From Lachnospiraceae bacterium UBA1251 (GTDB lineage: Bacteria > Bacillota > Clostridia > Lachnospirales > Lachnospiraceae): DNA of 12,981 nucleotides. The notes under the pieces were generated by a model. The model saw nothing but the letters and a program-made list of their open reading frames with translations, had not been told where the DNA came from and did no database searches. This document shows positions 3,615 through 12,981 of the stretch, one piece after another. The stretch's first letter is position 1. The number at the start of each line of letters is the position of its first letter. The stretch lies in contig DBVZ01000071.1 in assembly GCA_002308255.1 (NCBI GenBank), positions 7,984 to 20,964 on the forward strand, in the 5' to 3' direction. Made by a program: the position numbers and the translations under genes.

Positions 3615-3824
3615 ATGGCAGTATTGAGCGGATGTCAGGAAGGCAAACAGACCCCGAAACTCACGGAACTGATCTGCCCGGAGTGCGGTGAGATCATCGA
3701 AGTATTCGTAAGACAGGGCGGCACGGGAGATGACGCAGGCCGCACAAGAGATGATGCGATCTGTGAAAAATGCGGATACAAGATTCCGGACGGATCCAAG
3801 ATCGGTGATTACGAGCTGGCATAA
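3615..3824 (+). CDS. Small zinc-ribbon protein of unknown function
   Basis: A 69-residue acidic protein with two Cys pairs: CPECG at 21-25 and CEKCG at 50-54, with a Gly/Asp-rich stretch (GGTGDDAGRTRDD) between them. This spacing is typical of a single zinc ribbon that binds one Zn2+ through four Cys. Cys7 is additional. No DNA-binding helix, membrane segment or catalytic motif is visible. The start is well supported by GGGAGG about 7 bases upstream of the ATG. The gene has its own candidate promoter and ends just before a strong hairpin, so it is probably a single-gene transcript. I do not recognise a function. Small zinc ribbons can act as adaptors, nucleic-acid-binding or zinc-storage proteins, but nothing here chooses among these. 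Confidence 0.8.
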   Translation: MAVLSGCQEGKQTPKLTELICPECGEIIEVFVRQGGTGDDAGRTRDDAICEKCGYKIPDGSKIGDYELA

Positions 3825-3856
3825 CGCCTTTGATAATCTTTATATTAAAACAAAAG

Positions 3857-3892
3857 AAGATCCCGGCATTTTCGGCCGGGATCTTATTATTC
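3857..3892. terminator. Bidirectional rho-independent terminator between the zinc-ribbon gene and xpt
   Basis: AAGATCCCGGC (3857-3867) pairs perfectly over 11 bases with GCCGGGATCTT (3875-3885) around a 7-base loop. Read on the minus strand the stem is followed by a T-rich stretch (CTTTTGTTTTAATA), which makes a strong terminator directly after the xpt stop. On the plus strand the tail ATTATT is weaker but can end the convergent zinc-ribbon transcript. Confidence 0.88.
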
Positions 3893-4462
3893 CTCCCTGA
3901 AAACGACGGTATTGTCTGTCATGGATTCGATAATGGCCAGGGAATGCAGGTTGACTCCTTTCTCCCGCAGCATTTTTCCGCCTTCCTGAAAACCCTTTTC
4001 AATAACGATTCCGACTCCCTCGAGCGATGCGCCTGCCTGGCCGATGATGTCGATGAGACCTTCCGCCGCGCAGCCGTTGGCGAGGAAATCATCCACGATC
4101 AGCACATGATCCTCCGGTCCGAGAAATCTTCTGGAAAGCACCACGTCGTAGATCTTGCCGTAGGTATAAGAGCGGACGATCGAGCGGTACAAAGAGCCGT
4201 CCAGGTTTTTGGTCTGTGCTTTTTTGGCGAACACCACGGGTACGCCGAAACTCTGTGCCGTCATGCACGCCACCGCGATCCCGGAAGACTCGATCGTCAG
4301 GATCTTCGTGATCGGGCGGCCGCTGAAAATCCGGTGGAATTCTTCGCCGATCTCCTGCAGAAATGCAACGTCGATCTGATGGTTGAGAAAGCTGTCTACC
4401 TTGAGGATATTGCCGGGACGGACCCTGCCTTCCCGGAGAATTCTTCCTTTTAAAGCGTCCAT
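3887..4462 (-). CDS. xpt: Xanthine phosphoribosyltransferase
   Basis: A 191-residue cytoplasmic enzyme that joins xanthine to PRPP to give XMP, part of purine base salvage. It closely follows the Bacillus Xpt pattern: start MDALKGRI, then LKVDSFLNHQID (near 21-32), TKILTIESSGIA (52-63), and the PRPP-binding signature VLIVDDFLANG (about 121-131), followed by GIVIEKGFQ. Length matches the family (about 190-195). The frame extends to a GTG at 4471. The ATG at 4462 is preferred because AAAGGAG lies exactly 8 bases upstream of it, overlaps the GTG, and gives the usual N-terminus. It is transcribed divergently from the nucleoside catabolic genes and should recover xanthine released by nucleoside cleavage. 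In many Bacillota xpt is preceded by a purine riboswitch. The 107-base gap here is too short to hold one together with both promoters. Confidence 0.95.
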   Translation of the reverse strand: MDALKGRILREGRVRPGNILKVDSFLNHQIDVAFLQEIGEEFHRIFSGRPITKILTIESSGIAVACMTAQSFGVPVVFAKKAQTKNLDGSLYRSIVRSYTYGKIYDVVLSRRFLGPEDHVLIVDDFLANGCAAEGLIDIIGQAGASLEGVGIVIEKGFQEGGKMLREKGVNLHSLAIIESMTDNTVVFREE

Positions 4463-4470
4463 TTTCCGCA

Positions 4471-4477
4471 CTCCTTT
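4471..4477 (-). promoter_or_regulatory. Ribosome binding site that fixes the xpt start
   Basis: On the minus strand AAAGGAG lies 8 bases before the ATG at 4462 and overlaps the alternative GTG at 4471. This excludes the longer form. Confidence 0.8.
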
Positions 4478-4510
4478 TTCTTTGTGGAAGGGTCTGCTTC
4501 TCTATACTTT

Positions 4511-4539
4511 ATTATTGCAAAATGATATAATAAATGCAA
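4511..4539 (-). promoter_or_regulatory. Candidate promoter for xpt
   Basis: On the minus strand TTGCAT (plus coordinates 4534-4539), a 17-base spacer and AATAAT (4511-4516) make a plausible sigma-A promoter. It overlaps the divergent aldolase promoter on the other strand, so the two may compete or share a regulator. Confidence 0.5.
4523..4531 (+). promoter_or_regulatory. Candidate extended -10 promoter for the aldolase operon
   Basis: TGATATAAT at 4523-4531 is a perfect TATAAT with an extended TG element. There is no good -35 (TATACT at 4503-4508, 17-base spacing). Arms ATTGCA (4514-4519) and TGCAAT (4535-4540) lie symmetrically around it and could be an operator. The predicted leader is about 30 bases. 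Confidence 0.6.
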
Positions 4540-4569
4540 TCCGCATAAGCCGAAAATGGAGGAGCGTGA

Positions 4570-5217
4570 ATGCGTTATCAGAGTGAAAAAGAGGAAATGA
4601 TCGCCCGTTTTCTGAGGCTGTATGAGAGCGGAATGATCAATATGTTTGAGGGAAATATTACCGTCAGGACACCGGACTGTGTTCTTGTTACGCCTTCTCA
4701 GAAGGAAAAGGACAAGATCACTCCGGAGATGATCATTGAGATGGATCTCGACGGAAATATCCTGAACGATCCGCCAGCAAAGCCGTCGTCGGAGTATAAG
4801 ATGCATCTGATGCTTTACCGTCTGCGTGAGGATGTGAACGCCATAGTGCATACCCACAGTGCTTATGCCACTTCCTATGCCGTGGCGCGGGAACCGGTCC
4901 GCGGCAATATGGCCGAGCTCTACATGTTCTTCGGAGGAGAGATCCCGGTCTGCTCCTACGGCACGCCGGGAACCGAGGCGATCTGCGCGGATTTTCCGAA
5001 ATACTTCGTCGAAGAGGACAAAGATGCCGTCCTTCTGGCAAATCACGGCATCGTGACAGCCGGAAAAACGCTTGCGGATGCATACAGCAAGGCGGAATCT
5101 GCCGAAAAACTTGCGATGATCGGCATTCAGGCGCGTCTCATCGGTGAAAAGGGCGCCCTCAGGGAGGAAGATAAAGAACCGCTGATGGCTTTATACAGGA
5201 ACCGCAAAAAGCGGTAA
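4570..5217 (+). CDS. Class II aldolase (fuculose-1-phosphate / 5-deoxyribulose-1-phosphate aldolase type)
   Basis: A 215-residue zinc-dependent aldolase of the AraD/FucA family, the usual length of FucA. Visible features are EGNIT at 27-31 (phosphate site, compare Gly-Asn in FucA), TPSQ at 41-44, KPSSE at 71-75 with the catalytic Glu75, and zinc ligands His94 and His96 (VHTHSAYAT) and His159 (ANHG). These enzymes cleave a 1-phosphoketose into dihydroxyacetone phosphate and an aldehyde. Next to an MtnA-type isomerase the likely substrate is 5-deoxyribulose-1-phosphate, 5-methylthioribulose-1-phosphate or ribulose-1-phosphate, rather than fuculose-1-phosphate. No fucose isomerase or kinase is present. 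GGAGGAG at 4558-4564 supports the start. The gene is first in a run with the phosphorylase (27-base gap) and the isomerase. MtnB, the dehydratase of aerobic methionine salvage, is a distant homologue and a less likely alternative. Fold certain, substrate inferred. Confidence 0.85.
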   Translation: MRYQSEKEEMIARFLRLYESGMINMFEGNITVRTPDCVLVTPSQKEKDKITPEMIIEMDLDGNILNDPPAKPSSEYKMHLMLYRLREDVNAIVHTHSAYATSYAVAREPVRGNMAELYMFFGGEIPVCSYGTPGTEAICADFPKYFVEEDKDAVLLANHGIVTAGKTLADAYSKAESAEKLAMIGIQARLIGEKGALREEDKEPLMALYRNRKKR

Positions 5218-5244
5218 GGACCGGAAAACGGGAAAGGAAAAAAC

Positions 5245-6036
5245 ATGGGCGAAGAATTCAAAAGACAGGAACAGAAAGCGTCCGAGATCGGGCATGTGGA
5301 AAAGAACCTGCCGGAAATATTTCCGAGGTACTGTCTGCTTCCCGGCGACCCGGACCGCGTTGACGTCATGTCGGCGCAGTGGGATCCGGGCGTGACAAGC
5401 TATGACCTTGCCCGGAGGGAGAGAGCGGCTGTCGGAACCTACAAGGGAAGTCCGATTGGAGCCTGCGACACCGGAATGGGAGGCGGGAGCGTCGAGATCT
5501 ATCTGACGGATCTGGTAGCCCGCGGGGCGGATACGTTTATCCGCGTCGGGACGACCGGCTCGATCCAGGAACATGTTAAAGTGGGCGATATCGTCATCAA
5601 TGACGCCTGCGTCCGGATGGACGGGACTTCGGACCTGTATGTGCTGAAAGGTTACCCCGCGGCTGCAAATTACCTTGTCACGGCAGCACTCGTGGAAGCC
5701 TGTGAAAAGCTCGGTTTCCGCTATCACGTAGGTACCGGCTGCACCTGTGCGTCTTTTTATACCGGTCAGTGCAGGACCACGATCGGCGGATACCGCCCGT
5801 CGGGCGCGGACCGGCTGTTTGATGACTTAAGACAGGCAAAAGTACTGAATTTTGAGATGGAAGGCGCCACGATCTTTACGCTGGCGAGAATCTTCGGCAA
5901 GCGCGCCGGAATGTGCGCTTCCGTCGTGGCACACCGTCTGACGGGAGAATGGCTGGAGGATCCGGAAGCGGAAGCCCGGGCGTGCCTGGTCGGCGCGGAG
6001 GCGCTCCACATCCTTGAAGAAAGGGAACGGGCCTGA
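5245..6036 (+). CDS. Uridine phosphorylase-like nucleoside phosphorylase (NP-I family)
   Basis: A 263-residue member of the PNP/UDP phosphorylase family, which splits nucleosides with phosphate into base and sugar-1-phosphate. Visible motifs are PGDPDRV at 33-39, GMGG at 78-81, RVGTTGSIQ at 100-108 (phosphate and ribose sites), FYTGQCR at 171-177, NFEMEG at 202-207 (Glu204, Met205, Glu206 for the ribose) and Arg231. Gln175 and Arg177 match Gln166 and Arg168 of E. coli uridine phosphorylase, which bind the pyrimidine. His17 sits near the place of its His8, which contacts the ribose 5'-OH from the neighbouring subunit. Uridine or a related nucleoside is thus the best guess. Its place between the aldolase and the isomerase suggests that its sugar-1-phosphate product feeds them, so a 5'-deoxynucleoside or methylthioadenosine substrate remains possible. 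AAAGGA lies about 8 bases before the ATG. Confidence 0.85.
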
Positions 6037-6101
6037 AGAGACAGCGGCAGGAAGAAAACCGGAACCCCGGGACAGGGGAGCCTGAGAAGGAGGCAAATGA
6101 C

Positions 6102-7169
6102 ATGGTCATAACAAAAGAAGAACGAATGGGATGCAGTGTGCACCTGTCCGGGGATGAGAAAAGCGTGATCATTCTCGATCAGACGCAGCTGCCGAACCGG
6201 CAGGTGTATCTCACTCTGGAAACGGCGGAGGAGATCTACGACGCCATTAAAGTGCTCGCGGTGCGCGGAGCACCCGCAATCGGCATCTGCGCCGGATACG
6301 GCATGTACGTTCTTGCCTTGAAAAAACAGACAGAAGATTATGCTGCTTTTCGTAAAGAAATGCACGAGGACGGAGAGTATCTGATCTCTTCGAGACCGAC
6401 CGCCGTCAACCTGAGCTGGGCCGTAAAGCGCATGCTCGGCGTTGTGGACGGAAACGGGGACAAAACGGTTCCGGAGATCGTTTCCCTGCTTCATGACGAA
6501 TGCTATGCCATCCAGGACGAGGATATAGAAATGTGCCGCCGCATTTCCGAGTACGGGCTTTCTCTCGTCAAAGACGGCGACGGGATCCTGACGCACTGCA
6601 ATGCGGGCCCGCTGGCGACGTCAAGGTACGGAACGGCGATCGGACCGATGCTTCTCGGAAAAGAGAAAGGGATCGAATTCCACGTCTTTGCCGATGAGAC
6701 GAGACCTCTTCTGCAGGGTGCGAGACTGACCTCCTATGAACTGCAGAAAGCGGGCGTCGATGTCACCCTGATCTGCGACAACATGGCATCCCTCGTGATG
6801 AAGAACGGATGGGTGCAGGCCTGTTTCGTGGGATGCGACCGCATCGCCGCCAACGGTGACTTTGCCAATAAGATCGGCACGTCCGGCGTCGCGATCCTTG
6901 CGAAGCACTACGGGATTCCGTTCTATACGCTCGGACCAACGTCGACGATCGACATGAGCTGCCCGACGGGGGCAGACATTAAGATCGAACAGAGAAATCC
7001 GGACGAGATCCGGGAAATGTGGTACAGGGAACCGATGGCTCCCGCCGATGTCAAATGCTATAATCCCGCATTCGATGTCACGGATCACGAGCTGCTGACC
7101 GCGATCGTCACGGACCGCGGGATCGTGTATCCGCCGTTTGAGGAGAATCTGAAGAAGATATTTGAATAA
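6102..7169 (+). CDS. mtnA: MtnA-type aldose-1-phosphate isomerase (methylthioribose-1-phosphate / 5-deoxyribose-1-phosphate isomerase)
   Basis: A 355-residue cytoplasmic isomerase of the MtnA/eIF2B-like family, full length. It shows VRGAPAIG at 54-61, [10 protein letters not shown] at 97-106, HCNAG at 165-169 with the catalytic Cys166, [13 protein letters not shown] at 198-210, and [17 protein letters not shown] at 244-260 with the catalytic Asp246. The reaction is ring opening and isomerisation of a 5-substituted ribose-1-phosphate to the ribulose-1-phosphate form. The usual substrate is 5-methylthioribose-1-phosphate; some homologues take 5-deoxyribose-1-phosphate. The rest of the classical methionine salvage pathway (mtnB, C, D, K) is absent here. 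Instead an aldolase and a phosphorylase lie upstream, so it probably serves a DHAP-shunt type route. Compared with the forms I remember, GADRI reads GCDRI and KIGTY reads KIGTS. AAGGAGG at 6087-6093, 8 bases before the ATG, fixes the start. Confidence 0.9.
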
Positions 7170-7203
7170 TCAGTTCACAGCTGCTGCTCTCCGGATTACC
7201 GAA

Positions 7204-7232
7204 TCTGTTTTAACAAAAGTTTCAATTATAGT
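7204..7232 (+). promoter_or_regulatory. Weak candidate promoter before deoD
   Basis: TATAGT at 7227-7232 with TCTGTT 17 bases upstream (7204-7209). The -35 is poor, so deoD may instead be read from the aldolase promoter. The 83-base gap before deoD holds no terminator. Confidence 0.3.
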
Positions 7233-7252
7233 CGCCATATGGAGGAGAAATC

Positions 7253-7984
7253 ATGGTTACCAGTTCACCGTCAGCAAGCATTCAGTTAAAAGAAGGCACA
7301 CACATCGCGAAAGTGGTCCTTATGCCGGGTGATCCGCTCCGCGCGAAATATGTAGCGGAGCACTATCTCGAGAATCCGGTCCTGTTCAATGATGTCCGCA
7401 ACATGCTGGGTTATACCGGAACGTACGAAGGCAAGGAAGTGTCGGTTATGGGCTCGGGCATGGGAATGCCTTCCTTCACGATTTATGCCTATGAACTGTT
7501 CACGTTCTTCGGCGTGGAGGCGATCATCCGCATCGGATCCGCCGGCGCGATCCAGGATGACGTCCATGTCCGCGATGTCGTCATCGCGATGTCGGCGTCG
7601 ACGAATTCCGCGATGGGCAAGGCTTACGGCCTGCAGGGCGTGATCGCTCCGACCGCGACCTACGGCATGCTGAAAGAGGCTGTAAAAGCAGCAGAGGAGC
7701 TGGGCGTGCGTTCGCATGTGGGAACGGTCTATACATCTGATTACTTCTATAATCCCGACAAGAACATAAATCAGAAAGCCAGAGATCTCGGACATCTTGC
7801 GGTCGAGATGGAATCGGCGGGACTGTATCTCACGGCGATGGCCGAACACAAGAAAGCGCTTGCCCTGTTCACGATCTCGGATCATATTTACACCGGGGAG
7901 GCTCTCAATGCGCAGGAGAGACAGGACAGCTTCCACGAGATGATGGAAGTCGCCCTCAAGACGGCGGTCCGCTCGGAGATCTGA
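7253..7984 (+). CDS. deoD: Purine nucleoside phosphorylase, DeoD type
   Basis: A 243-residue hexameric-type phosphorylase, the usual DeoD length. It cleaves purine (deoxy)nucleosides to free base and (deoxy)ribose-1-phosphate. Motifs: MPGDPLRAKYVAE at 24-36, SGMGMPS at 68-74, RIGSAGAI at 93-100, SDYFY at 162-166, VEMES at 184-188 (Glu185, Met186, Glu187 for the ribose), ISDH at 208-211 with the purine-protonating Asp210, and Arg223 in QERQDSF. The family His near the N-terminus (His4 in E. coli, which binds the ribose 5'-OH across subunits) appears replaced: the segment reads SASIQLKEG where Bacillus DeoD has HIGAEKG. That could loosen the need for a 5'-OH. GGAGG at 7241-7245 supports the start. 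It lies between the isomerase and the nucleoside importer, and its hypoxanthine, guanine or adenine products would need other transferases than Xpt. Confidence 0.93.
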   Translation: MVTSSPSASIQLKEGTHIAKVVLMPGDPLRAKYVAEHYLENPVLFNDVRNMLGYTGTYEGKEVSVMGSGMGMPSFTIYAYELFTFFGVEAIIRIGSAGAIQDDVHVRDVVIAMSASTNSAMGKAYGLQGVIAPTATYGMLKEAVKAAEELGVRSHVGTVYTSDYFYNPDKNINQKARDLGHLAVEMESAGLYLTAMAEHKKALALFTISDHIYTGEALNAQERQDSFHEMMEVALKTAVRSEI

Positions 7985-8026
7985 ACCGGATGTGCCGGCG
8001 GGATTTTTATCAGACAGCTTTTTTTT
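7980..8026 (+). terminator. Weak possible terminator after deoD
   Basis: TCTGA (7980-7984) can pair with TCAGA (8010-8014) around an inner CCGG/CCGG hairpin, and a run of eight T (8019-8026) follows 4 bases later. The stem is short and interrupted, so termination would be partial at best. Confidence 0.3.
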
Positions 8027-8038
8027 AGAGGCAAGGCG

Positions 8039-8047
8039 TGATAAAAT
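8039..8047 (+). promoter_or_regulatory. Candidate extended -10 promoter for the nucleoside ABC importer
   Basis: TGATAAAAT at 8039-8047 is an extended -10 form (TG-A-TAAAAT). A T-rich block lies at the -35 position without a clear box. A separate transcript start for the importer is plausible, because a weak terminator-like structure lies just upstream. Confidence 0.45.
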
Positions 8048-8060
8048 AAATTGTTAAATC

Positions 8061-8082
8061 GGGACAATTTTTATTGTATCCC
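8061..8082. promoter_or_regulatory. Imperfect inverted repeat upstream of the nucleoside receptor gene (possible operator)
   Basis: GGGACAAT (8061-8068) mirrors ATTGTATCCC (8073-8082) apart from a 2-base TA insertion. Another ATTGT at 8050-8054 mirrors ACAAT at 8064-8068. The site is downstream of the candidate -10 and upstream of the ribosome binding site, where a repressor could block transcription. No matching regulator gene is in the window. Confidence 0.35.
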
Positions 8083-8088
8083 TGAATT

Positions 8089-8096
8089 AAAGGAGG
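8089..8096 (+). promoter_or_regulatory. Ribosome binding site that fixes the start of the receptor gene
   Basis: AAAGGAGG ends 5 bases before the ATG at 8102. A longer frame from a TTG at 8051 would run through this site and add 17 residues before the signal peptide, so it is rejected. Confidence 0.85.
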
Positions 8097-8101
8097 CAAA
8101 T

Positions 8102-9292
8102 ATGAAAAAGAAAACAATTCGACTGATCAGCATGCTCCTTGTCCTTGTTCTTACACTCGGACTTTGCGCATGCGGCGGCGGCAATCCTGTTTCTTCGGAA
8201 ACGGAAAGCACCGCGGAAGCAGCGGAAGACACCGGCAAGGGTCTCAAGATCTGCATTATCACTACATCGGGTGTTGACGACGGTTCCTTCAACGAGAACT
8301 GCTACGACGGCATCAAGGCGTTCATAGCCGATCATCCGGACTGCACCGTAAAAGATGTCAAGGAAGCGGACCTGTCCAAGGTCATCGATACGGTCGGCGC
8401 TCTCGTCGGCGATTATGACGTTATGCTCCTTCCGGGCTACAATTTCGCAAGGGTCGCAGAGATCGCGCAGGCGAATACCGACAAATACTTCATCATTGTC
8501 GACTCTACGCTCCAGGACCAGGAAGGAAATGAAGTCAACGGCCTTCCGAATGTCTACACGATGACGTTCATGGAGCAGGAATCCGGTTTCTTCGCCGGTC
8601 TTGCGGCGGCTCTTTCCACCGAGACAGGCAAAGTTGCGGTCGTCAACGGCATTGCGTTCCCGTCCAACGTCAACTATGAATTCGGCTTCATGGCCGGCGT
8701 GAACTACTCGAACGCAAAATTCGGCACGAGCGCGGAATATGTTGAGATCCCGTCCTACGCGGGCGAAGCGGCTGTCCCGGTAGCGGGCGGCGACTACGGC
8801 ACAGCGGTAGGCGGCAACTACATCGGAGACTTCGCGGATCAGGCAAAGGGCAAGGAAGTTGCGGAAGCCCTGATCGCAGCGGGCGTCGACATCATCTTCC
8901 CGGCAGCGGGAACCGCAGGAAACGGCTGCTTCACAGCGATCAAGGAAAACGGCAAAGGATACTGCATCGGCTGTGACGTCGACCAGTTTGACGACGGCGT
9001 GAACGGAAGCTCCAACATTATCCTTACCTCCGTTCTCAAGGTCATGGATATCAACATCACCAAGCAGCTGAATGCGATCTATGACGGCACGTTCAAAGGC
9101 GCGGATGATACGCTCGGCGCGGCATCTGATCCGGCAGGAACCGGCTTCGTTTCCGCAGAAGGACGTCATCAGCTCTCCGCAGAAGCTCTTGAAAAGATGA
9201 ACCAGGCATACGAAGACCTCAAGGCCGGCAAGATCGAGCCGCCCTCGAACTTCAACGGCTATACACCGGAAGACTTCCCGGGTCTGAAATAA
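8102..9292 (+). CDS. BMP/PnrA family nucleoside-binding lipoprotein of an ABC importer
   Basis: A 396-residue extracellular lipoprotein. The N-terminus MKKKTIRLIS is followed by a hydrophobic stretch and a lipobox, LCAC, so the lipidated residue is probably Cys24. A Gly/Ser/Glu-rich linker runs to about residue 45. The mature domain shows family features: IITTSGVDDGSFNENCYDGI (52-71, compare the GSFN segment of PnrA), YDVMLLPGYNFA (105-116), FMEQESGFFAGLAA, VNYEFGFMAGV, and DIIFPAAGTAGNG. BMP/PnrA proteins bind purine or pyrimidine nucleosides and pass them to the double-ATPase transporter encoded directly downstream, which fits. The neighbouring phosphorylases support a nucleoside ligand. 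A terminator after the gene is likely to let the receptor be made in excess over the membrane parts. Some family members are called basic membrane protein or CD4-T-cell-type antigens. The ligand has not been tested. Confidence 0.92.
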   Translation: MKKKTIRLISMLLVLVLTLGLCACGGGNPVSSETESTAEAAEDTGKGLKICIITTSGVDDGSFNENCYDGIKAFIADHPDCTVKDVKEADLSKVIDTVGALVGDYDVMLLPGYNFARVAEIAQANTDKYFIIVDSTLQDQEGNEVNGLPNVYTMTFMEQESGFFAGLAAALSTETGKVAVVNGIAFPSNVNYEFGFMAGVNYSNAKFGTSAEYVEIPSYAGEAAVPVAGGDYGTAVGGNYIGDFADQAKGKEVAEALIAAGVDIIFPAAGTAGNGCFTAIKENGKGYCIGCDVDQFDDGVNGSSNIILTSVLKVMDINITKQLNAIYDGTFKGADDTLGAASDPAGTGFVSAEGRHQLSAEALEKMNQAYEDLKAGKIEPPSNFNGYTPEDFPGLK

Positions 9293-9306
9293 GTTGAAAA
9301 AACATG

Positions 9307-9345
9307 AAGGGTCAGCCATGACGCGGTGCATGGCGGCCCTTTTTT
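9307..9345 (+). terminator. Intra-operon terminator/attenuator between receptor and ATPase genes
   Basis: AAGGGTC-A-GCCATG (9307-9320) pairs with CATGGC-GG-CCCTT (9329-9341), with one bulged A and one T.G pair, around an 8-base loop. Six T (9340-9345) follow. It lies 14 bases after the receptor stop and 24 bases before the ATPase start, so it probably gives partial termination. Confidence 0.85.
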
Positions 9346-9369
9346 AAGCGGAAGTGAGGGAGTCACCAT

Positions 9370-10914
9370 ATGGGTGCAAACAACGAAGAATATATCGTGG
9401 AAATGCGGCATATTACCAAGCGATTCCCGGGTATTATCGCCAATGACGACGTCACGATCCAGGTGAAAAAAGGTGAGATCTACGCTTTGCTCGGTGAGAA
9501 CGGAGCGGGAAAGTCGACTCTCATGAGCATGCTTTATGGTCTCTATGAGCCTGATCACGGTGAGATCTATGTCCGGGGCGAAAAAGTAGAATTCAAATCG
9601 CCGGCAGAAGCCGCAGCAAAGAACATCGGAATGGTGCATCAGCATTTCAAGCTGGTCGACAACTATACGGTCGGAGAGAACATCGTTCTAGGCATCGAAC
9701 CGATGAAAAAGGCGCTGGGGATATTCCCCTACGTCGATATGAAAGAGGCTAATGAGAAGATCCGTACGCTTTCCAAAGAATACGGGCTGGAAGTGAATCC
9801 GACGGATCTGATTTCTGATATTAATGTTTCGATCCGGCAGCGCGTAGAGATCATGAAGATGCTTTACCGCGAAGCGGAGATCCTGATCTTCGATGAACCG
9901 ACCGCGATCCTGACGCCGCAGGAAGTGGAATACCTCCTCAAGATCATGCTGGAACTCCGGAAAGGCGGCAAGACGATCATCCTGATCACGCACAAGATCG
10001 AGGAGATCAAGAAAGTAGCGGACCGCTGCGCGATCCTTCGCCGCGGCAGACTGATCGATATCCTGGATGTTCCGACAACGTCCACACAGGAGATGGCAAA
10101 TCTTATGGTGGGACGCAACGTGGAGCTTTCCGCCGTCAAATCGGAACCGCATTTCGGGGGTGTCGTCCTTTCCGTTAAGGACCTTTCCGTTAGAAACGAG
10201 GAGAAGGTCCAGGTCGTCAAAGGCATTTCCTTTGATGTACGGGCAGGTGAGATTTTTGCGATCGCCGGCGTATCCGGCAACGGGCAGGTCGAGCTTGCGG
10301 ACGCGATCACGGGACTTGAAAAGATCGAGAGCGGATCGGTCACCCTCCTCGGAAAAGAAATAACGAACGAGAGCATCCGCACCCGGACGGAGAGCGGCAT
10401 CAGCTACATTCCGGAAGACAGACAGAAATTCGGTATTTTCATGGATTTCAGCCTTCGTGACAATATGGCGATCCGCCGCTATTACAAAGAACCGTTCTCG
10501 AAAAAAGGCATTTTCAATTTTGCGGAATCGGAAGCGTACGCGAACAATGTCATTGACAATTATGACGTCCGGAGCGGTCAAGGCGCGAAAACGATCATGC
10601 GTTCGATGAGCGGCGGCAACCAGCAGAAAGCGATCGTCGGACGTGAGATTGAAGAACATACGCCTCTAATCATCTTCGTGCAGCCTACGCGTGGTCTTGA
10701 CATGGGCGCTATTGAGAACGTTCATAAGCAGATCCTGCAGGAACGTGACAGAGGGGCGGCGATCGTTCTGATCTCTCTTGAACTTGAAGAAGTCATGAAC
10801 CTTGCGGATACGATCGGCGTTATCTACAACGGGCAGCTCCTCAAGATCGCGGATGCCGGCACGCTGACATCGCAGGATGTCGGACGGTATATGATGGGGG
10901 TGACGGAAGCGTGA
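9370..10914 (+). CDS. Nucleoside ABC importer ATP-binding protein with two nucleotide-binding domains (NupO/YufO type)
   Basis: A 514-residue cytoplasmic ATPase with two fused ABC domains, the usual length for sugar/nucleoside importers. Domain 1 has Walker A GENGAGKST (42-50), Q-loop Gln91, Walker B ILIFDEPTA (171-179) and H-loop His208. Its signature is degenerate (INVSIRQRVEI, 151-161, with no LSGGQ). Domain 2 has a degenerate Walker A (GVSGNGQVEL, 300-309), a good signature MSGGNQQK (413-420), IIFVQPTRGLD (434-444, Gln where the catalytic Glu would be) and no His switch (ISLELEE). The head-to-tail dimer would therefore have one competent site (domain 1 Walker A with domain 2 signature) and one degenerate site, as in the RbsA/NupO group. 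GAGGGAG lies 7 bases before the ATG. The stop overlaps the GTG start of the first permease (GTGA). Confidence 0.93.
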   Translation: MGANNEEYIVEMRHITKRFPGIIANDDVTIQVKKGEIYALLGENGAGKSTLMSMLYGLYEPDHGEIYVRGEKVEFKSPAEAAAKNIGMVHQHFKLVDNYTVGENIVLGIEPMKKALGIFPYVDMKEANEKIRTLSKEYGLEVNPTDLISDINVSIRQRVEIMKMLYREAEILIFDEPTAILTPQEVEYLLKIMLELRKGGKTIILITHKIEEIKKVADRCAILRRGRLIDILDVPTTSTQEMANLMVGRNVELSAVKSEPHFGGVVLSVKDLSVRNEEKVQVVKGISFDVRAGEIFAIAGVSGNGQVELADAITGLEKIESGSVTLLGKEITNESIRTRTESGISYIPEDRQKFGIFMDFSLRDNMAIRRYYKEPFSKKGIFNFAESEAYANNVIDNYDVRSGQGAKTIMRSMSGGNQQKAIVGREIEEHTPLIIFVQPTRGLDMGAIENVHKQILQERDRGAAIVLISLELEEVMNLADTIGVIYNGQLLKIADAGTLTSQDVGRYMMGVTEA

Positions 10915-12107
10915 GTAAAGAAAAGAAAATGAACGAAAAAGGCTTCAAGGCCTGGCTGGCGCGCTTCCTGACAAATGAAAAATGGTCGAAGCTCACCGTC
11001 CCGGTCTTCTGCATCGTCCTGATGCTGATCTTCTCGAGCATCCTGCTGCTGATTCTCGGGAAAAACCCGTTTACGGCGTTCTACAGCTTCCTTGCGGGCA
11101 ACGGGTTCGCGCCGAAGGCCAGCTACGGCGCCGGCTCCGGCATGCTGTCGGATTTCTTCCAGTTCCTGAACATCATGGCGCCGATGCTGCTTGCCGCGCT
11201 GGCATTTATCTTTGCCTACCGCTGCGGCCTGTTCAACATCGGTATCGCCGGGCAGATGCTGCTCTCCGGTTTTGTGGCGTCCATCACGGTCGGTTACATG
11301 AAAAATCTGAGCGGCGTTATCGCTAAGCCCCTGGTTATCCTGATCGGTATCCTGGTCGGCGGAGCGCTCGGCGCGTTTGTCGGGTTCCTGAAATATCGGT
11401 TCAATATTCATGAAGTCGTCTCGACGATCATGATCAACTATATTATCAGTTATCTGACCGGCTTCTATATCAACTCGAAATTCGTGGATCCGATCAGCCG
11501 CGCGTCGAAAGTCGTTTCCGCGCAGTCGAGATTGACCTATACAAAGGTCCTGATCGGCGGATTTTACTGCAATGTGCCGCTCGGCATCGTTCTGGCAATC
11601 GTGATGGCATTTGTCGTTCACTTCATTTTCGAAAAGACTGTTTTCGGATTTGAACTGCGTGCCGTCGGATCGAACCGGAACGCGGCCCGCTACAGCGGCA
11701 TCAACGTCGGAAGACAGATCGTCTTCTCCATGATGCTCTCCGGCGTTCTGGCCGGTCTTGCGGGTGTTACTTATTATCTCGGCTTCACCAATCAGATCCT
11801 TCCCAAGACCCTTGCGGGAATGGGATATGACGCGATCGCCACGGCCCTGCTGGGCAACTCGAATCCGCTCGGCGCGATCCTGAGCTCCATGCTGATCACT
11901 CTTTTCCAGAACGGCAGCAACTATATGAGCTCTGTCCTCGGCGTTGCCAAGGAGATCGCATCCGTCATTACCGGTATCCTGCTTCTGTTCTCCGCGTGCG
12001 GCGGGTATTTCCGCTACGTCTCTGCCGCTTCACTTGACCGGCTCGCCGACTATAAGCACACACAGGAGAAGCAGGAAAAAGAGGCGAAAGGAGGCGCGGA
12101 CAAATGA
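10911..12107 (+). CDS. Nucleoside ABC importer permease 1 (NupP/YufP type, BPD_transp_2)
   Basis: A 398-residue inner membrane permease. A Lys-rich cytoplasmic N-terminus is followed by hydrophobic segments at about 29-50, 88-104, 116-130, 141-160, 168-186, 221-240, 270-290 and 345-362. Family motifs are FAYRCGLFNIGIAGQ (101-115) and the cytoplasmic coupling loop LRAVGSNRNAARYSGIN (249-265), which meets the ATPase. The C-terminal tail (about 375-398) is highly charged. The start is a GTG overlapping the ATPase stop, with GGGGG about 12 bases upstream; an ATG at 10929 would remove only six residues and is possible. It should pair with the second permease to form the channel for nucleosides delivered by the lipoprotein receptor. 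The stop overlaps the start of that second permease (ATGA), showing tight translational coupling. Confidence 0.92.
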   Translation: MSKEKKMNEKGFKAWLARFLTNEKWSKLTVPVFCIVLMLIFSSILLLILGKNPFTAFYSFLAGNGFAPKASYGAGSGMLSDFFQFLNIMAPMLLAALAFIFAYRCGLFNIGIAGQMLLSGFVASITVGYMKNLSGVIAKPLVILIGILVGGALGAFVGFLKYRFNIHEVVSTIMINYIISYLTGFYINSKFVDPISRASKVVSAQSRLTYTKVLIGGFYCNVPLGIVLAIVMAFVVHFIFEKTVFGFELRAVGSNRNAARYSGINVGRQIVFSMMLSGVLAGLAGVTYYLGFTNQILPKTLAGMGYDAIATALLGNSNPLGAILSSMLITLFQNGSNYMSSVLGVAKEIASVITGILLLFSACGGYFRYVSAASLDRLADYKHTQEKQEKEAKGGADK

Positions 12108-12981
12108 GTTATATCAATAAAATGATCATCGACGGTCTTGCTTTCGGCATTCCGCTGTTCATCATGGCTGTCGGCGCGATCTACTCGGAAAAGAGCGGCA
12201 TCACGAACCTTGCCGTGGAAGGCTTCCAGGGGTTCGGCGCATTCTGCGGCGCCGTGCTCGCGACGCTTCTTGATATTCATACGAACATGGATCCGCAGGC
12301 GATCCTGTATCTGGCAATCCTGACAGCATTTTTCGGAGGAGCTCTGTACGCGACGCTTCATGCGCTCCTGTGCATCAAATTCCGTGCCGATCAGACGATC
12401 AGCGGCGTCGTCATCAATATCCTCGCCGTGGCGCTCACGACTTTCCTGACGTCCCAGATCAGCGGCGTCCTGTACGGCAACGCATCCAACAAATTCACGC
12501 TCGGCGTTTCCAACCGCTTTACGGTGCCCGGAATCAGCAAAATCCCGGTGATCGGGGCGATCTTCACCAACATTTATCCGTTCGAGATCATCATCCTGGT
12601 CCTCGGCGTGTTCATGTGGTACATCATGTATAAATCGAAATACGGCATGCGCCTGCGTGCCTGCGGCGAAAATCCCCAGGCTGTCGACGCGGCCGGCGGA
12701 AATGTCGCGAGGACCCGCTTTATCGCGGTCCTGATCTCGGGCGGTCTGTCCGGTATCGGTGGCATGTGCTTTGCCTATTCGATCCTGTCGATGTTCTCGC
12801 CGAGCATTTACCTCGGCTACGGGTATCTTGCCATCGCGGCGATGATCTTCGGCAACTGGAACATCATCCCGACGTTCCTGGTCTGTATTTTCTTCGGACT
12901 TGCCAGAGCGGGCGGCAATCAGCTGTGTCTGTTTGCGGGACTGTCCTCACTGTATACGGATCTCTTCATGATGATCCCGTA
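12104..12981 (+). CDS. Nucleoside ABC importer permease 2 (NupQ/YufQ type), 3' truncated by window end
   Basis: The frame runs from the ATG at 12104, which overlaps the previous stop, to the window end without a stop; 292 complete codons are visible. AAAGGAGG at 12087-12094, 9 bases upstream, supports the start. Features are IYSEKSGITNLAVEG (26-40, the conserved first-loop region), several hydrophobic segments, and the coupling loop LRACGENPQAVDAAGGNV (184-201) followed by SGGLSGIGG (212-220). These match the second permease of BMP-type nucleoside importers, which are usually about 300-320 residues, so only the last 10-30 are likely missing. With permease 1 it would form the membrane channel. 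There is no sign of a frameshift. Whether more genes follow, such as cytidine deaminase or phosphopentomutase, cannot be seen. Confidence 0.9.
   Translation, partial: MSYINKMIIDGLAFGIPLFIMAVGAIYSEKSGITNLAVEGFQGFGAFCGAVLATLLDIHTNMDPQAILYLAILTAFFGGALYATLHALLCIKFRADQTISGVVINILAVALTTFLTSQISGVLYGNASNKFTLGVSNRFTVPGISKIPVIGAIFTNIYPFEIIILVLGVFMWYIMYKSKYGMRLRACGENPQAVDAAGGNVARTRFIAVLISGGLSGIGGMCFAYSILSMFSPSIYLGYGYLAIAAMIFGNWNIIPTFLVCIFFGLARAGGNQLCLFAGLSSLYTDLFMMIP

Follow-up and report, generated by a model that had tools for sequence, protein, structure and literature searches.

A gene cluster of Lachnospiraceae bacterium UBA1251, carried on the 12 981-nucleotide stretch of contig DBVZ01000071.1 analysed here (the window), probably converts a nucleoside sugar into an intermediate of glycolysis. 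Sequence comparisons incline us slightly towards a phosphorolytic ketose-1-phosphate shunt of the dihydroxyacetone phosphate (DHAP) shunt kind, encoded beside a likely nucleoside importer. In this scheme a BMP-type ABC importer would, judging from its family, bring nucleosides into the cell. In the first step a DeoD-type phosphorylase would split purine nucleosides lacking the 5'-hydroxyl group, such as 5'-deoxyadenosine and methylthioadenosine (MTA), and perhaps ordinary ones, into the base and (5-deoxy)ribose-1-phosphate, and a uridine-phosphorylase-like enzyme (NP) would do likewise for uridine-type nucleosides. MtnA, an aldose-1-phosphate ketoisomerase by family, would then turn the aldose-1-phosphate into the ketose-1-phosphate, which a protein of the class II aldolase family would cleave into DHAP and acetaldehyde, methylthioacetaldehyde or, from ribose, glycolaldehyde; the substrates of both enzymes are predicted ones.

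The class II aldolase, NP and MtnA are encoded in a row on the plus strand with gaps of 27 and 65 bases, as a sequence-only reading of this DNA had reported. That reading took the three genes for an operon; the genes are present, but the unit is larger, as the same-strand run extends past mtnA with deoD after an 83-base gap and then with genes for a BMP protein, an ATPase and two permeases, all of which had been omitted (Table 1). It had also assigned the first step to a phosphorylase inside the operon. The idea of a phosphorylase-fed route resembling the DHAP shunt is supported by the surveys below, because MtnA enzymes of the window's motif type lie near a phosphorylase in 28 of 32 regions, the kinase MtnK is rare and phosphorylase and aldolase occur together in some Bacillota regions; the uridine-phosphorylase-like gene itself, however, is not a widely conserved first-step enzyme.

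MtnA was found in 110 of the 397 Lachnospiraceae genomes sampled. We fetched 60 Lachnospiraceae regions, 58 from 57 of these 110 genomes plus one each from genomes G031 and G010, and 59 yielded mtnA. Within about 8.5 kb of mtnA these 59 regions held a phosphorylase in 31 cases, an amidohydrolase resembling S-adenosylhomocysteine (SAH)/MTA/5'-deoxyadenosine deaminases in 19, a BMP protein in 15, an aldolase in 11 and a cytidine deaminase in three. The phosphorylase type beside MtnA is variable (PNP-II, DeoD, or DeoD with NP); what recurs is the pairing of MtnA with a neighbouring nucleoside phosphorylase. MtnK was found in three of the 57 MtnA-bearing genomes searched, so that MtnA is seldom fed by this kinase in these genomes; a set of Lachnospiraceae MtnA operons looks as if it is fed by interchangeable nucleoside phosphorylases rather than by the textbook kinase. 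At the level of the phylum, 303 of 398 Bacillota genomes had MtnA at an E-value of 1e-60, and 80 regions drawn from the better matches contained a phosphorylase (29), an aldolase (25), an MtnK-like kinase (10) or both phosphorylase and aldolase (10), the phosphorylases of the last group all being of PNP-II type. With 10 of 80 regions carrying it, the phosphorylase–MtnA–aldolase set is widespread. A lack of linkage elsewhere, which the sequence-only reading had named as refuting its idea, largely applies to the exact set and order aldolase–NP–MtnA, seen in two species only, but it does not apply to the functional set.

Other arrangements were also seen. Commoner than the window set in the sampled genomes is an operon of PNP-II, in some cases a zinc alcohol dehydrogenase, mtnA, a BMP-type ABC importer, in some cases a cytidine deaminase, and the SAH/MTA/5'-deoxyadenosine-deaminase-like amidohydrolase (in Lachnospiraceae, loci L112, L115, L116, L118, L121, L123, L125, L127 and others). 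Downstream of mtnA in L224, L234 and L249 come a PNP-I-type phosphorylase that lacks the uracil motif and a zinc alcohol dehydrogenase. Three consecutive MtnK-like kinase genes lie at G235:C66:7950-11630, in a genome with seven matches to the methylthioribose (MTR) kinase model. The 5'-hydroxyl His of PNP-II was considered as a discriminator of operon type and rejected; a hand count found the residue conserved in 12 of 19 Lachnospiraceae rows and 22 of 26 rows of the phylum sample.

The window MtnA scores above the salvage equivalog cut-off and has the expected fold and both catalytic residues, Cys and Asp, with C166 and D246 as the predicted pair. Compared with MtnA of Bacillus subtilis, it has Pro170 in place of Ser and Leu277-Gly278 in place of Ala-Ala; where the window enzyme has LGP, other MtnA rows mostly have AAP or CAP. 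For the ribose-1,5-bisphosphate (R15P) isomerase of Pyrococcus horikoshii, the accessible text of PMC5789824 gives Cys135 and Asp204 as catalytic residues and Ser137, Lys240 and backbone groups including those of Lys138 and Ala139 as 5-phosphate contacts. Mapped by number from the catalytic residues, and not as a measured pocket, these contacts fall at about MtnA 168–170 and 282, which puts residues 170 and 277–278 at or near the expected site of the C5 substituent. In the Lachnospiraceae regions a phosphorylase is nearby in 28 of 32 cases with Gly at 278 and in three of 26 with Ala or Cys (Fisher p 4.5e-9, without correction for kinship); L147, whose motif is unreadable because the protein is too divergent, and L129, in which no mtnA was found, are omitted. 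In a FastTree tree the Gly-type enzymes form mostly one clade, with seven Gly-type rows elsewhere. The smallest well-supported clade around the window enzyme has 34 rows, 33 at a support of 0.997; it pairs with PNP-II, DeoD, or DeoD with NP, and 31 of the 34 are phosphorylase-linked and 14 have a BMP importer (hand count, window included). LGP was rejected as a marker of phosphorylase feeding: it marks the clade, and outside the clade AAP-type enzymes are often phosphorylase-linked too.

The likely first enzyme for 5'-deoxynucleosides, as far as its residues suggest, is DeoD, with NP adding uridine-type nucleosides. The window DeoD has Ser9 at the position of His4 of E. coli purine nucleoside phosphorylase, which we take to contact the 5'-hydroxyl group. 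This position holds Cys, Ser or Met in all 14 DeoD rows with mtnA in the locus and His in all 10 rows without; the 14 include two from L104, and near-duplicates and fragments (L038, L039, L046, L059–L062, L064, L070, L075 and L128) had been left out beforehand. The enzyme is predicted to be a phosphorylase for 5'-deoxynucleosides (MTA, 5'-deoxyadenosine), for purine nucleosides, or for both. In the genus of the window a DeoD-like protein is the usual phosphorylase beside mtnA; a hand reading placed the two genes next to each other on one contig in 21 of 31 mtnA-bearing genomes. As separate observations, L104:9665-11126 carries tandem DeoD-type genes before mtnA, the second of which has diverged strongly (26% identical, with Glu where E. 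coli has D204), and in two different families (L114:9276-12839 and L171:1987-2772) deoD interrupts a BMP importer operon, separating the genes for the binding protein and the ATPase.

The main reason for 5'-deoxynucleosides as the core substrate comes from the genomes with NP, namely the source genome (G000, 70% complete), G031 (locus L001) and G010 (locus L002, 93% complete). All three have SAH hydrolase, and searches of them found no MtnN over the cut-off, no MtnK and no deoB. SAH would thus be handled without MtnN, while MTA and 5'-deoxyadenosine would not be, unless by DeoD; the route would then also remove by-products of S-adenosylmethionine (SAM) in these genomes, and this offers an idea of their disposal in bacteria that lack MtnN and MtnK. 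Among 37 genomes of the genus, mtnA is present in 31, SAH hydrolase at an E-value of 1e-20 in 28 (27 over the cut-off), deoB in 15 and MtnN over the cut-off in 13; the 24 without MtnN include 20 with SAH hydrolase and 21 with mtnA.

The aldolase is a predicted ketose-1-phosphate aldolase that would yield DHAP and an aldehyde. Its E75, H94 and H96 align with E73, H92 and H94 of E. coli FucA, presumably the functional residues of that enzyme, and the nearest solved structures in a PDB comparison are FucA entries and 6btd, which we take to be DrdA of Bacillus thuringiensis. Among the matches listed (the best 25 of 30), all NCBIfam models are below their cut-offs, including those for FucA (NF005302, 128.7 versus 264; TIGR01086, 79.6 versus 400.25) and for the haloarchaeal ribulose-1-phosphate aldolase (NF053831, 119.9 versus 300 bits). 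In a tree the window aldolase groups with the G031 copy alone, and mtnA-linked aldolases are polyphyletic. A kinship of other mtnA-linked aldolases to that of the window was rejected, the identities of about 55% having been to Lachnospiraceae reference aldolases.

NP has the uridine phosphorylase model TIGR01718 as its best NCBIfam match, below the curated cut-off, and has PDB matches to uridine phosphorylases. Q175 and R177 align with the Gln and Arg of E. coli uridine phosphorylase (UP) that we take to form the uracil site and are kept in most of the NP relatives shown; His17, matched by eye, is a candidate counterpart of what is presumably the 5'-hydroxyl His of E. coli UP. From these residues NP looks made for uracil nucleosides, and its product would be ribose-1-phosphate. 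Close relatives are few: three of 61 relatives, G000 among them, carry NP at 80% identity or above, two of 391 genomes of the class match it at an E-value of 1e-45 (G000 itself and a second with 43% identity), and a pattern-based search through GTDB genomes gave L001–L003 as the sole close relatives. The next relatives, L004–L020 at 44 to 55% identity, are mainly archaeal, with an Alphaproteobacterium, a member of the Nitriliruptoraceae and two Opitutales metagenome-assembled genomes (MAGs); no mtnA was found at an E-value of 1e-8 in the DNA fetched around them. Among L005–L020, the nearest named relatives beyond the NP clade, many are archaeal (44–50% identity), and this may point to horizontal transfer. 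Proteins named Christensenella, Oscillospiraceae, Pseudonocardia and Spirochaetales are 58–71% identical, from protein records alone that carry no gene context.

NP adjoins mtnA in all four NP loci seen, that is, the window and L001–L003. L001 carries xpt, aldolase, NP, mtnA, deoD and importer genes; in L002, xpt and NP are accompanied by a truncated mtnA, with no aldolase between, and L003 has NP, mtnA, deoD and the importer, with no aldolase upstream. Of the 10 genes adjoining NP relatives in seven other loci, only that for a PfkB kinase, in L008, is plausibly linked. Three other members of the genus (L042, L045 and L055) have UP-like phosphorylases whose GQxR uracil motif lacks Arg, for which the name uridine phosphorylase may be wrong.

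Several points weigh against the phosphorolytic shunt. All substrates are inferred from sequence. Natural pyrimidine 5'-deoxynucleoside substrates are not known to us, and NP, which keeps the uracil-site residues, therefore misfits a pure DHAP shunt. The aldolase accompanies NP and mtnA in only two of the four NP loci, and G010 has only a weak match to it (E-value 8e-10). The split at the His4 position of DeoD tracks lineage; every unlinked row belongs to the window's genus and to a locus that was fetched for its UP-like gene. Ser or Cys at this site could also still bond a 5'-hydroxyl group. The 13 genus genomes with MtnN still hold mtnA in 10 cases and SAH hydrolase in eight, and the association of SAH hydrolase with MtnN is not significant (Fisher p 0.23), nor is that of mtnA. 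Finally, G000 is only 70% complete and many of the genomes are incomplete MAGs.

Since the NP product would be ribose-1-phosphate and no deoB was found in the three NP genomes, MtnA is a possible outlet for it. The cluster could then be a ribonucleoside catabolic operon, in which NP and DeoD split imported uridine and purine nucleosides to ribose-1-phosphate, MtnA converts this directly into ribulose-1-phosphate and the aldolase forms DHAP and glycolaldehyde, standing in for the phosphopentomutase DeoB; we regard this as possible, though on the unlikely side. The Gln175 and Arg177 of NP and its His near the 5'-hydroxyl position fit it, but in DeoD the corresponding histidine is lost. While deoB was not found in the three genomes and is present in 15 of the 37 of the genus, and all 17 genus genomes that are at least 90% complete have mtnA, deoB or both, deoB also occurs in 12 of the 31 genus genomes with mtnA and in three of the six without. 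Family-wide it is about equally common with MtnA (84 of 110) and without (227 of 287; hand tally), so that DeoB replacement was rejected as a general rule and gives no general proof of ribose-1-phosphate use. The clade MtnA does differ from that of B. subtilis at or near the residues mapped to the C5-substituent contacts of R15P isomerase; however, the LGP-type MtnA of L187 adjoins a kinase-like gene, so LGP is no mark of ribose-1-phosphate use. Cytidine deaminase (3/59) and the BMP importer (15/59) in family MtnA regions are consistent with ribonucleosides, as is the haloarchaeal conversion of ribulose-1-phosphate to DHAP and glycolaldehyde, reached by another route according to the accessible part of PMC9700705. 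Our literature search, largely at title and abstract level and covering few subscription journals, gave no account of an MtnA acting on ribose-1-phosphate or of this gene set. In its broader form, which we put forward tentatively and at the same modest level of belief, this would be a kinase- and phosphatase-free route of anaerobic bacteria without DeoB, running from import through NP or DeoD to ribose-1-phosphate, through a re-tuned MtnA clade to ribulose-1-phosphate and on to DHAP and glycolaldehyde, bypassing the pentose phosphate pathway, with the same enzymes clearing 5'-deoxyadenosine and MTA. If true, it would be a new nucleoside fermentation route.

It is improbable that the cluster serves methionine salvage or MTA disposal only, taking MTA to MTR-1-phosphate and methylthioribulose-1-phosphate with NP and the aldolase as unrelated passengers. 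MtnA passes the salvage equivalog model and the NP genomes lack MtnN over the cut-off; against this stand the residues near the MtnA pocket that differ from B. subtilis, the absence of an MtnK match and the joint presence of NP and mtnA in all four NP loci. The sequence-only reading had seen no further methionine-salvage genes, and this is true of the scanned window genes; genome-wide, MtnK (no match) and MtnN (none over the cut-off) were sought, in a genome 70% complete. Similarly improbable is a chance gathering of housekeeping nucleoside phosphorylases, a fuculose-1-phosphate aldolase and a salvage isomerase, since a divergent class II aldolase that is missing beside NP–mtnA in two of four loci and has the L-ribulose-5-phosphate 4-epimerase model and FucA, both below cut-off, as its best NCBIfam matches among those listed would suit it, but MtnA is repeatedly paired with several phosphorylase types and polyphyletic aldolases, and no fucose isomerase or kinase is found among the scanned window genes.

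Upstream of the run, xpt is divergent from the aldolase gene, as it also is in L001 and L002, and this base-salvage gene is probably outside the operon. Firmicutes xpt genes often bear a purine riboswitch; Rfam at gathering thresholds gave no match anywhere in the window, including the 98-base xpt–aldolase gap (4472–4569). The ribosome binding sites, all described as strong in the sequence-only reading, are so for the aldolase (GGAGG) and mtnA (AGGAGG), but that of NP (GGAAAGGA) is only fair. With the bmp start at the ATG at 8102, the gap after deoD is 117 bases, and the importer could thus be transcribed from a promoter of its own. Over 3700–9500, consensus scans showed no clear excess of promoter-like (5 versus 3.1 shuffled) or terminator-like sites (9 versus 5.8).

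Table 1. Genes and marked residues of the window.
Feature	Positions	Strand	Model match or remark
xpt, xanthine phosphoribosyltransferase	3887..4471	-	NF006671 267.9 bits, cut-off 177
Class II metal-dependent aldolase	4570..5217	+	PF00596
NP, uridine-phosphorylase-like nucleoside phosphorylase	5245..6036	+	PF01048; TIGR01718 205.8 bits, below cut-off 280.3
MtnA-type aldose-1-phosphate ketoisomerase	6102..7169	+	PF01008; TIGR00512 398.7 bits, cut-off 279
MtnA Pro170, after CNAG, clade-marking residue	6609..6611	+	
MtnA Leu277-Gly278-Pro279 (LGP), clade-marking motif	6930..6938	+	
DeoD-type purine nucleoside phosphorylase	7253..7984	+	TIGR00107 294.9 bits, cut-off 232.25
BMP-family substrate-binding lipoprotein, ABC importer	8102..9292	+	PF02608; start is the ATG behind AAAGGAGG
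ABC importer ATPase	9370..10914	+	PF00005, two stretches
ABC importer permease 1	10911..12107	+	PF02653
ABC importer permease 2, reading frame open at window end	12104..12981	+	PF02653

The proposed shunt resembles several known systems. The first is the DHAP shunt for disposal of 5-deoxyribose (drdK-drdI-drdA in B. thuringiensis; mtnK-mtnA-ald2 in E. coli ATCC 25922), which likewise has an MtnA-type isomerase and a class II aldolase and ends in DHAP and an aldehyde; the two enzymes are encoded together in the window and G031 and not in L002 and L003. The window differs in having no kinase, in its phosphorylases, which are DeoD-type and UP-like and not MTA-phosphorylase-like, and in the BMP-type importer that follows. 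The second is found in other Bacillota and Lachnospiraceae as PNP-II–mtnA–(aldolase)–deaminase clusters, in which a phosphorylase also feeds MtnA; theirs matches inosine/guanosine phosphorylase models (NCBIfam) and is joined by the SAH/MTA/5'-deoxyadenosine-deaminase-like enzyme. The third is the haloarchaeal non-carboxylating pentose bisphosphate pathway, which, in the accessible text, also begins with a phosphorylase and ends with a ribulose-1-phosphate aldolase giving DHAP and glycolaldehyde, but runs through ribose-1,5-bisphosphate and ribulose-1,5-bisphosphate (RuBP) with a kinase and a phosphatase (PMC9700705). Neither a ribose-1-phosphate kinase, an R15P isomerase nor a RuBP phosphatase is among the scanned window genes, the genome not having been searched for them. 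The 5'-deoxyadenosine route of Methanocaldococcus jannaschii and the fluorometabolite route of Streptomyces cattleya, as far as the available excerpts describe them, share the phosphorylase and the MtnA-type isomerase, and the latter also the aldolase step to DHAP; they differ in using other phosphorylases and in their purpose, an aromatic precursor or fluoroacetaldehyde (PMC6079011, PMC6302742, PMC7408626).

Phosphorylase–isomerase–aldolase clusters have already been predicted, with Clostridium phytofermentans named in the accessible part of PMC6079011; the Bacillota trio fits them, and the three-gene idea is thus already known. Some DHAP-shunt clusters, by the excerpts available, also include transporters (PMC6079011, PMC10986504, PMC12632272). 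What is new is the form with DeoD, NP and a BMP importer, which we see as a variant within an established pathway type.

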